A DNA stretch of 61,754 bases from Nitrospinota bacterium (lineage in GTDB: Bacteria; Nitrospinota; Nitrospinia; JACRGO01). The stretch spans positions 1-61,754 of the forward strand of contig JACRGO010000042.1 in the NCBI GenBank assembly GCA_016212295.1, in the 5' to 3' direction. Under the pieces are notes generated by a model. The model made no database searches, was not told the origin of the DNA, and saw only the letters and a list, made by a program, of their open reading frames with translations. A program made the position numbers and the translations under genes. Shown here piece by piece: positions 6,918-52,297 of this stretch (positions within the stretch are counted from its first letter, which is position 1; the number at the start of each line of letters is the position of its first letter).

Positions 6918-7627
6918 GCCTTCAGGTCCAAAACCGTGCCTATCATCTGGTCCTTTGTCTTGATCGCCTTGGCTGACGCCTTGAATCCGGCCCCTGCCAC
7001 TATCATATTGACGCTCTCCCTGGCGATGTCAACATTGGACGCCTCAAGAAACCCGCTCAACAATTCCCCCCGGCCGCCGGCGCCCGGGGCGCCTGCCAGG
7101 GGAGATCCAGATGCATCGGTTTGAAGAAAAATATTCCCGCCGGCCGCCGCCAGTCCGTCCGGATTGGGAAATACGGACAAATTGATTCGGCCCAGGGGAA
7201 CGGCGTTACCTCCAACCATCGCTGAAACCACGCCGGACCTGTCAACCGAGACCCCGGTGGCATTGCCGGGAATGGTGATCGGGGGCTGCAGGACATTGCC
7301 GTTGGCGTCGGCCAATTGGCCCTGGGCGTTTGTGGAAAAACTCCCATTCCGGGAAAAACCGGCCTTTCCGCCCGGGACCGCGAGATTAAAGAACCCCTGG
7401 CCCAAGATGCTTATATCCAATGGATCGCCGGTCTGGAGCAGCCCTCCAGCTTCCTTGCTGATAGTGACGGAGGCTATATTCACGCCCCCCTGCGCGAGCG
7501 GCTGCTGGTCCGCGCGGCGGCTTTTATAACCGGAGGTTGATATGTTGGCGAGATTATTAGAGGAGGTCTCTATTTGCCTGGCATAGGCGTCCAGAGCGGA
7601 AGCAGAGGCCCCAAATCCATTAATCAT
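6914..7627 (-). CDS. Flagellar basal-body rod/hook protein, FlgG/FlgF-like
   Basis: A 237-residue member of the FlgG/FlgF/FlgE axial family. The N-terminal rod signature is present (ETSSNNLANISTSGYKSRR, residues 20-38), followed by the D1 entry GDPLDISILGQGFF near 67-80 and the C-terminal SNVDIARESVNMIVAGAGF helix near 193-211. It lacks the longer stalk region of FlgE and is a little shorter than usual FlgG, so FlgG versus FlgF is unresolved. A GGGAGAA ribosome site lies just before the ATG, and a good sigma-70-like promoter is upstream. It is separated by 13 kb from the fliK-flgD-flgE operon. Confidence 0.8.
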   Translation of the reverse strand: MINGFGASASALDAYARQIETSSNNLANISTSGYKSRRADQQPLAQGGVNIASVTISKEAGGLLQTGDPLDISILGQGFFNLAVPGGKAGFSRNGSFSTNAQGQLADANGNVLQPPITIPGNATGVSVDRSGVVSAMVGGNAVPLGRINLSVFPNPDGLAAAGGNIFLQTDASGSPLAGAPGAGGRGELLSGFLEASNVDIARESVNMIVAGAGFKASAKAIKTKDQMIGTVLDLKA

Positions 7628-50849: not shown

Positions 50850-50960
50850 CCAAAATGAGAGCAAAATTTCAAATCCCAAATAGCAAATTACAAATAAGTT
50901 CCAAACTACAATTGCATAGAGCGGCATGGCCGCAACCAAAATAAATTTCGATGCATTCAG
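50850..50960. repeat. Family B arm and family A element
   Basis: AAATTTCAAATCCCAAATAG and CAAATTACAAATAAGTTCC are family B. GCATAGAGCGGCATGGCCGC then AACCAAAATAAATTTCGATG at 50914-50953 is one of the longest family A copies; its tail matches the copy at 57152. Confidence 0.85.
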
Positions 50961-50990
50961 GGCTGGGCCAGCAGGATAGTAAGGGAAGAG

Positions 50991-51860
50991 TTGGAAAAGA
51001 AAGATGCCGCCCCATTCAGACACTGGCGCCTGGCTGCCCAGTCCCTGCTGGATATCCACAAGGACAATAGGGACGCGGATGTGGTGCGTCTTGCAAGGCA
51101 AAGATTACAGTTTATTCTTACAGCGAAAGAAACCCCGAAAATCAAGGCCGAGGCGGGTGAGATTTTGGGGTGGCTGGGTGACCCCAGGGGGGACCTGGAG
51201 GAGCTAGTCAGGATAAAAGGGGGAGAATATGAGTTGGAGGATTTGGGCAAGGCAAATTTAAAACCCTTCGGGATAGGAAAATATCCGGTGGCCAACCAGT
51301 GGTTTGAAAAGTTTATTCAGGCCGGAGGGTATAAAGAAGAAAATTGGGAAAGATACTGGACCCCGGAAGGAAGAAAGTGGATGAAGGAGAATAAGCCCCA
51401 GGCCCCTCTGTATTGGCACGAGCGGCAATGGAATTGCCCCAACGCTCCGGTGGTGGGGGTGAGCTGGTACGAGGCGGACGCCTTTTGCCGTTGGCTCACG
51501 GAAGAAAGGAAGGATGGGTTTGTTTATCCCAGGAGTGGCAGGCTGCGGCAGCCGGAAAGGGTGAAAAGGAAAGAGAATATCCTTGGGGGGAATGTGTGGG
51601 AGTGGACAAGATCGGATTACCACGCGAGGACGGAGCGCGATGATTTTTTGTTTGATGAGGAAATACAAAAACTCTATGATACGGAGAGTAGGGATGAACT
51701 ACGAAAGAAATGGCAAGAGAAAAATCGTCAATTGCCGTCGCTCCGGGGCGGTTCGTGGTACTTCTACCGTTGTTTCGCCGGGTGCGCCTACCGCTACTGG
51801 AACTACCCGTACGTACGGTACTTCGATATCGGGTTTCGTTGCGCCAGGACTTCAAAATAA
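50991..51860 (+). CDS. FGE-fold protein with C-terminal variable region; damaged DGR-target-like gene
   Basis: A 289-residue frame. Residues 1-75 are helical and end in GWLGDPRGDLEEL, common before formylglycine-generating-enzyme (FGE)-type domains. The FGE-like domain has LYWHERQWNCPNAPVVGVSW then YEADAFCRWL, GGNVWEWTRS and LRGGSW, and ends GFRCARTSK. Between FVY and GGNVWEW the normal motif is missing: the next 20 residues are read out of frame, while the +1 frame has EWQAAAAGKGEKEREYPWG, so two indels cancel. The codons also run upstream of TTG 50991 with no start, so the 5' end may be lost. The C-terminal codons look DGR-diversified. Confidence 0.7.
   Translation: MEKKDAAPFRHWRLAAQSLLDIHKDNRDADVVRLARQRLQFILTAKETPKIKAEAGEILGWLGDPRGDLEELVRIKGGEYELEDLGKANLKPFGIGKYPVANQWFEKFIQAGGYKEENWERYWTPEGRKWMKENKPQAPLYWHERQWNCPNAPVVGVSWYEADAFCRWLTEERKDGFVYPRSGRLRQPERVKRKENILGGNVWEWTRSDYHARTERDDFLFDEEIQKLYDTESRDELRKKWQEKNRQLPSLRGGSWYFYRCFAGCAYRYWNYPYVRYFDIGFRCARTSK
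51741..51846 (+). other. Candidate diversity-generating-retroelement variable region
   Basis: From LRGGSW to GFRCA the constant codons flank 23 codons of which seven are TAC, three TTC and one AAC, separated by GCC, CGC, CCG and CGG. That is the pattern left when AAC codons in a template repeat are changed at adenines. The motif RGGSW...CAYR...GFR is the usual C-lectin/FGE variable-region frame. No template repeat or reverse transcriptase is in the window. Confidence 0.6.
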
Positions 51861-51923
51861 TCTTTTCCCTTTTACTCTTTTACCCTTTTGGGTTTTCTGT
51901 TTTTTGTTTTTTTGTTTTTCTTT

Positions 51924-51950
51924 GCCGCCGAAGGCGGCCGGATTTTTTTT
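51924..51950 (+). terminator. Hairpin with T run after the FGE-fold gene
   Basis: GCCGCC GAA GGCGGC at 51924-51938, followed by CGGA and eight T bases. It is a good rho-independent terminator and is about 80 bases after the variable region, where DGR target genes can also carry a hairpin. Confidence 0.75.
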
Positions 51951-52160
51951 CTTAAATTCCCCTCTGGAGAGGGGTGGCCGAAGGCCGGGGTGTGTCTTTT
52001 CTCGTTCCCAGGGTTGTCATGAAAAACCGGAGAAAACCTCATTATCTATTTTTTACATCCCCCTTGGTCCCCCATTGCTAAGGGGGAATTAAAACAGGGC
52101 CTATTTTTGGGGTTTTTCCCGTATTCCCCATTAGCAAAGGGGGACCAAGGGGGATGTTGT
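51951..52160. repeat. Inverted CCCCCTTGGTCCCCC repeat
   Basis: ACATCCCCCTTGGTCCCCCA at 52055-52074 with TTGCTAAGGGGGAATT faces ATTCCCCATTAGCAAAGGGG at 52123-52142 and GACCAAGGGGGATG. A shorter AATTCCCCTCTGGAGAGGGG hairpin precedes it. The arms are those of a small mobile-type repeat. 51861-52297 otherwise shows no gene. Confidence 0.75.
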
Positions 52161-52297
52161 TTCACCTGCAATTGAGCATGAAGCTGTTTTCCATGATATC
52201 CCGTGAACAGTTACCTTTTATCTTTTCTTCGCGACCTTTGCGGCTTTGCGCGAGAAAAAGAGTTTAACCTACAAGAAACATCAACAAGGAACTTTTA

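Follow-up and report, generated by a model that had tools for sequence, protein, structure and literature searches.

The window, by which we mean the whole analysed stretch of 61,754 nt, contains an open reading frame at 50991–51860 that encodes a protein of 289 residues with the FGE fold (Pfam FGE-sulfatase match of 94 bits). The 3' end of this gene resembles the variable repeat (VR) of a target of a diversity-generating retroelement (DGR), in which a reverse transcriptase (RT) and a template repeat (TR) would be expected to act on it. The features of the locus are the following:

50991–51860, + strand: FGE-fold open reading frame with a TTG start, probable C-terminal remnant of a gene of the DUF4062-NACHT-FGE type
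51500–51610, + strand: damaged FGE core, from the DNA alignment with the homologue on contig C649 of the same-genus genome G001 and from direct reading of the sequence
51744–51845, + strand: putative VR, RGGSWYFYRCFAGCAYRYWNYPYVRYFDIGFRCA, from its codon pattern and its fit to the TRs of the clade
51828–51852, + strand: IMH-like 3' end of the VR, ATCGGGTTTCGTTGCGCCAGGACTT, the same as the VR and TR ends of this DGR clade
51861–51892, + strand: pyrimidine tract, the tail element of the VR, with units of about 8 nt, TCTTTTCCCTTTTACTCTTTTACCCTTTTGGG, scoring 40.3 bits with a weight matrix
51924–51938, + strand: GC hairpin GCCGCC-GAA-GGCGGC with a T run behind it, a possible target-site hairpin and/or transcription terminator

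The nearest homologue of the window gene is the 925-residue DUF4062-NACHT-FGE protein of G001 C649, G001 being the only further genome of the genus that the comparison covered. With tblastn, residues 639–951 of the C649 protein were aligned to positions 50958–51851 of the window (45% identity, E 7e-73). Homology to this intact relative starts at about 50958, in the linker before the FGE domain, and the sequence upstream is unrelated. The NACHT half, which the same-genus homologue keeps, is absent upstream of the window gene. Of the features of a NACHT-FGE sensor, an NLR-like conflict protein, the window gene has therefore lost the STAND/NACHT NTPase domain that should precede the FGE domain. 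Two deletions were found in the FGE core. The first, of 13 nt at about 51528, shifts the reading frame; the second, of roughly 110–125 nt at about 51595, restores it, leaving a wrong-frame segment in between. The damage was read from one MAG consensus, to which assembly errors could contribute. Synteny between the window gene and the C649 gene was not found and the flanking genes differ, so that we make no claim of orthology by position. The truncation itself is shown, and the window gene is best regarded not as a normal gene but as a damaged, 5'-truncated remnant of the NACHT-FGE sensor kind; the sensor function is inferred.

A sequence-only reading of the locus had proposed an orphan DGR target, based on an FGE-fold gene with a codon-biased RGGSW...GFR end. 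It had missed the 5' truncation, the internal deletions and the pyrimidine tract at 51861–51892 after the stop codon; the description of the gene and its end held. The putative VR comprises a stretch of 34 residues at the C-terminus, just before the RTSK end of the protein. It thus sits where a DGR target carries its VR, at the C-terminal end of a C-type-lectin/FGE fold. The 11 TAC, TTC or AAC codons counted between RGGSW and GFR were confirmed, albeit among 24 codons and not 23. Such codons have a background of 6.2% (P = 6e-8, codon use of the window), and no other stretch in the long open reading frames of the window matches 11 per 24. The Tyr and Phe codons end in C in 10/10 cases inside the stretch vs 5/19 in the remaining gene (P = 2e-4); a C in the third position is found in 16 of the 24 codons inside and 49 of the 265 outside (P = 1.4e-6). 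This bias lies in synonymous third positions and thus separates derivation from a template from mere selection for aromatic residues.

Fifteen columns hold Asn codons in real templates of this type. There the window VR has NNY in 14 and NNC in 12, and two TR-proven VRs have 15 and 14 pyrimidine-ending codons at the same columns. Two more target-gene tests are met, namely NNY at the template AAY positions with the third base conserved, and an IMH with a downstream cis element as in the VRs of the clade. The codon signature is shown. Of the 15 putative mutated codons (51759–51830), 12 start with T and none with C, a skew that exceeds free adenine mutagenesis and that could possibly be explained by selection for aromatic residues.

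In the phylum, an RT of this type was detected in 5 of the 77 genomes searched. Contig C67 of G001 carries bAvd, a DGR RT (GIPIGNLTSQ, YMDD) and an AAC-rich TR, and begins inside a VR. The TR/VR pairs on G013 C275 and G025 C5, both of the same class, differ at 15 and 18 template adenines, respectively, and at no other position; adenine-only pairs are thus shown in relatives. The window VR could be aligned with the TRs of the clade without gaps, and its mutable positions fall exactly at template Asn/AGG codons. The nearest templates are of the 'ARCANRNRNNP...GFRCAR' type with 15–17 non-A mismatches, the best having 15, vs 25–34 for seven non-VR paralogues of the same genome. The TR of G001 was ruled out as the template of the window VR (28 non-A mismatches). 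The adenine rule is not directly applicable to the window VR because its own TR was not found, and with one genome per species and neither reads nor strains, codon-confined variation rests on no strain-level data.

We considered whether the gene could code for an ordinary FGE protein that owes its aromatic-rich C-terminus to normal selection, the likeness to a DGR target being convergent. The RGGSW...GFR frame is common to many FGE paralogues, and some non-DGR paralogues (e.g. L047) are C-rich at third positions too. Against this alternative stand the synonymous-site bias of the Tyr and Phe codons, the larger distance of the seven non-VR paralogues from any TR, and the absence of the tail tract behind those paralogues. 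We regard convergence as very unlikely and retain the reading as a DGR target.

It had been claimed that the window holds neither an RT nor a template repeat and that the element would act from elsewhere in the genome or be lost. The first part held, as neither a TR nor a DGR RT was seen within the window. Concerning the second part, a genome-wide search for a near copy of 51741–51846 beside a DGR-type RT gave none in the assembly, a MAG of 3.74 Mb in 237 contigs with 90.5% completeness. Even when up to 3 mismatches were allowed, a TR-compatible pattern matched nothing in this assembly but the VR itself; BLAST gave no further match longer than 17 nt, and a translated Asn-rich query only retrieved FGE genes. 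No DGR-type RT with the [LIV]GxxxSQ motif was found in the assembly, and a DGR RT query gave no real match. The only RT of the assembly, on contig C142, was rejected as a DGR RT, since its motifs QGGVISP and YADD are of the group II intron type; it adjoins a degenerate FGE-like gene (L001/L129). The search of the assembly for the accessory protein Avd turned up no more than two four-helix proteins below the threshold, neither of them related to a TR or an RT. These candidates, on C215 and C48, are ordinary four-helix proteins amid unrelated genes and were rejected. All tests for a complete DGR (RT, TR, Avd) are therefore unmet in the assembly. The orphan status is supported as far as the genome is assembled, but with an incomplete assembly loss of the DGR cannot be separated from its non-assembly.

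Two further VR-like FGE ends were identified in the same genome, which resemble the VRs of other templates. On C104 (L123), a second NACHT/FGE locus of this genome, an FGE open reading frame behind a NACHT-encoding one reaches the contig end; its VR-like end is RGGAFYLNVRLARCAARDWNYPSYWFRSFGFR, and the little flanking sequence that remains on the contig holds no tract. The FGE gene on C115 (L013, 1426–2370) has the VR-like end RGGSWHYEPRNVRAANRF...GFRLA, followed by a tract of 36 bits and a hairpin. This end resembles the TR type of G054 C87 and constitutes a third orphan candidate. Derivation of both ends from the same TR as the window VR was ruled out by reading, as the IMH sequences differ.

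It is possible that the target is still live and that a DGR on contigs missing from the MAG diversifies the C-terminus from afar. The incompleteness of the MAG and its 237 contigs speak for this, as does the fact that DGR repeats break assemblies: the DGR contig of G001 starts in a VR and the VR-like gene on C104 ends at a contig end. In addition, the frame and the tail of the window VR are intact, and the ends on C104 and C115 are present in the same genome. Arguing against a live target, the NTPase half and the FGE core are lost and there is no good start, so that diversification would serve little; moreover, none of the 237 contigs carries a DGR RT or TR. A relic remains the preferred reading.

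The pyrimidine tract, with the consensus CCTTTGnnCTTTTACnCTTTTACCCTTT, follows directly after the stop codon. The matrix with which it was scored had been trained on other phyla, and the next non-overlapping match in the window reaches only 12.5 bits. The GC hairpin, claimed to lie about 80 bases beyond, was confirmed: it starts 79 nt past the VR, or about 78 nt past position 51846, at which the repeat had been taken to end. Its role had to be corrected, however. Only some tract-bearing tails have a GC hairpin with a GNA loop; it is an optional part of a longer tail, of which the tract is the better conserved part.

When the 3' flanks were compared, the tract was present after VR-type ends and absent after TRs and non-VR paralogues. 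By pattern search, exact CTTTTACNCTTTTAC occurs in the genome of the window only as the window copy. All six copies in G013 follow VR-type ends. In G015 seven of the eight copies follow or appear to follow such ends. The eighth is found at a DGR RT gene (C7, L068/L136), where the tract and VR-tail sequence lie directly behind the RT gene in place of a VR, giving the impression that a VR tail was attached to this gene. The four copies in G001 all belong to a different repeat family. G001 harbours an abundant inverted-repeat family, CTTTAACTCTTTTACTCTTTGTGA (e.g. L145, L149, L158), which is tract-like and not near VRs.

When GTDB genomes were scanned for a VR end with the tract behind it, 28 matches at 27 loci were obtained. 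Of these matches, 27 are FGE C-termini of the VR type, mostly belonging to large NACHT- or KAP-NTPase proteins; the match in Syntrophaceticus was taken as chance. The matches come from at least 10 phyla (labels as in the record titles), among them Brocadia, Verrucomicrobia, Desulfobacterota, Nitrospinota, Nitrospirota, Desantisbacteria, Bacteroidota, Poribacteria, Aminicenantes and Elusimicrobia. The loci were partly chosen by the tract itself, and for some VR-like ends no TR was found. In 10/10 tract-bearing proteins checked, a NACHT or KAP NTPase domain precedes the FGE domain; some add metallophosphatase or TCAD9 domains, and several resemble PADLOC candidates.

DGR RTs 39–55% identical to that of G001 were found in 10 of the 19 genomes searched. 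Nine RT-adjacent TR/VR pairs (L187, L188, L189, L190, L191, L192, L195, L200 and L071) have 0 non-adenine mismatches, and the tract lies behind each VR and never behind the TR, the sole exception being a loose match (up to 2 mismatches) in the TR spacer of L191. Among RTs sampled regardless of the tract, cyanobacterial and Chlorobi plasmid DGRs carry variant tracts, and the tract is absent at the DGRs of Ideonella, G025 and G013 C103. The viral DGRs for which a TR/VR pair was found (among 28 RT relatives) have no tract after their VRs, and the pattern of VR end plus tract had 0 matches in viral_contigs. A viral source of the window VR and tail was rejected on these grounds. A crude count of CTTT in the tails did not significantly separate cellular from viral VRs (P = 0.08), and the weight matrix was used instead.

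In a maximum-likelihood tree of the RTs all 19 tract-bearing systems fall into one clade of 23 rows (support 100/98), which further includes one tract-less system and three rows not scored. The tract label requires 2 changes on this tree vs 13.8 in shuffles. For the sampled RTs the tract thus follows one well-supported, mainly cellular RT clade.

A different explanation is that tract and hairpin do no more than terminate transcription, or that they were passed down with the gene family as its 3' end, without being a DGR element. The T run behind the window hairpin, the fact that the tract-bearing genes are all FGE-domain genes, and the separate tract-like family of G001, which is without VRs, are in its favour. 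On the other side, the tract is conserved at the nucleotide level over at least 10 phyla despite differing NTPase and N-terminal domains, it tracks the RT clade on the tree, and it follows VRs and not TRs, with the sequence beyond it not conserved among the loci. We consider this explanation the weaker one. The balance leans, without being decisive, towards the bolder reading that the tract CCTTTGnnCTTTTACnCTTTTACCCTTT acts in cis as a hitherto undescribed element of the target site, shared over at least 10 phyla by one cellular clade of DGR RTs, its function being inferred. Under this bolder reading the tract could be bound in the manner of an iteron, or it could unwind easily and so serve cDNA integration.

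Taken as a DGR target, the window VR is supported by its codon pattern, its agreement with the TRs of the clade and a tail that marks proven VRs; the orphan status proposed initially is supported, for the assembly, by the lack of a TR and of a DGR RT. We conclude that the C-terminus is very likely a decayed or remote target of a cellular DGR of the NACHT/KAP-FGE type, most likely a relic. The codon signature and the tail are shown, whereas past mutagenic homing at the locus, loss of the DGR, sensor function and a role of the tract in target choice are inferred. In DGRs of this type the RT miscopies the adenines of the TR RNA, and the resulting cDNA takes the place of the 3' end of a target gene bearing a matching IMH and tail. 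At this locus the target would have been the ligand-facing FGE domain of an NLR-like protein. The tract may help to choose the target, either because the RT/Avd complex or a host factor binds to it or because it keeps the site open; such a function has not been shown. The sensor domain would have been diversified in the past, followed by decay of the gene with loss of the NTPase half and damage to the FGE core. The present locus would most likely be a relic no longer diversified; that a DGR on a contig missing from the assembly still targets it from a distance is less likely.

NACHT/STAND-FGE targets are known from the cellular DGR clade 5D (Dore et al. 2024, PMC10907252). Like the type of the window gene, these are STAND NTPases with a C-terminal FGE/CLec domain containing the VR; they are proposed antigen sensors and, as here, there are often several loci per genome. 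Unlike them, the window gene is truncated and its assembly has no RT or TR. The main text of that paper mentions neither a hairpin nor anything 'downstream' of the VR. The target site of BPP-1 (Guo et al. 2011, PMC3240598) likewise has an IMH at the VR 3' end and then a cis element with a GC hairpin, which has a stem of 7–10 bp and a GRNA tetraloop and lies 4–34 bp from the VR. In the tails described here, by contrast, the pyrimidine tract precedes any hairpin, whose loop is often a GNA triloop and whose distance from the VR is larger (79 nt in the window). In nanoarchaeal DGRs (Paul et al. 2015, PMC4372165) the VR is also followed by hairpins whose loops are GRA trinucleotides, but these lie inside the target gene, and no tract appears in the passages of that paper bearing on it. 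The remote variable proteins of cyanobacteria (Vallota-Eastman et al. 2020, PMC7517822) are similar in that VR genes are far from the RT; they are at least 50% identical at the nucleotide level to a VR of the same genome, whereas no local VR/TR pair exists for the window. No description of the tract was found in the open-access literature searched, key DGR papers included; subscription papers were outside the scope.

Remote VRs are hard to find because surveys seek near-repeats beside an RT, and targets far from the RT are missed (Roux et al. 2021, PMC8144416). If the tail signature does mark VRs alone, distal and relic targets could be listed in whole genomes by sequence, be they live, remote or orphan, and it would reveal which immune-like sensor genes were ever diversified. 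Known target-site work is on phage BPP-1, and the tract offers a concrete candidate for target recognition by cellular DGRs. The window locus itself may give a picture of a diversified sensor once the mutator is gone or missing.

Downstream of the tail, the window contains a 43-bp repeat (51954–51996) and a 208-bp intergenic repeat (52012–52219). The latter is 91% identical to positions 7305–7512 of L129 and is thus also present on C142. Together, the two look like dispersed non-coding repeats.
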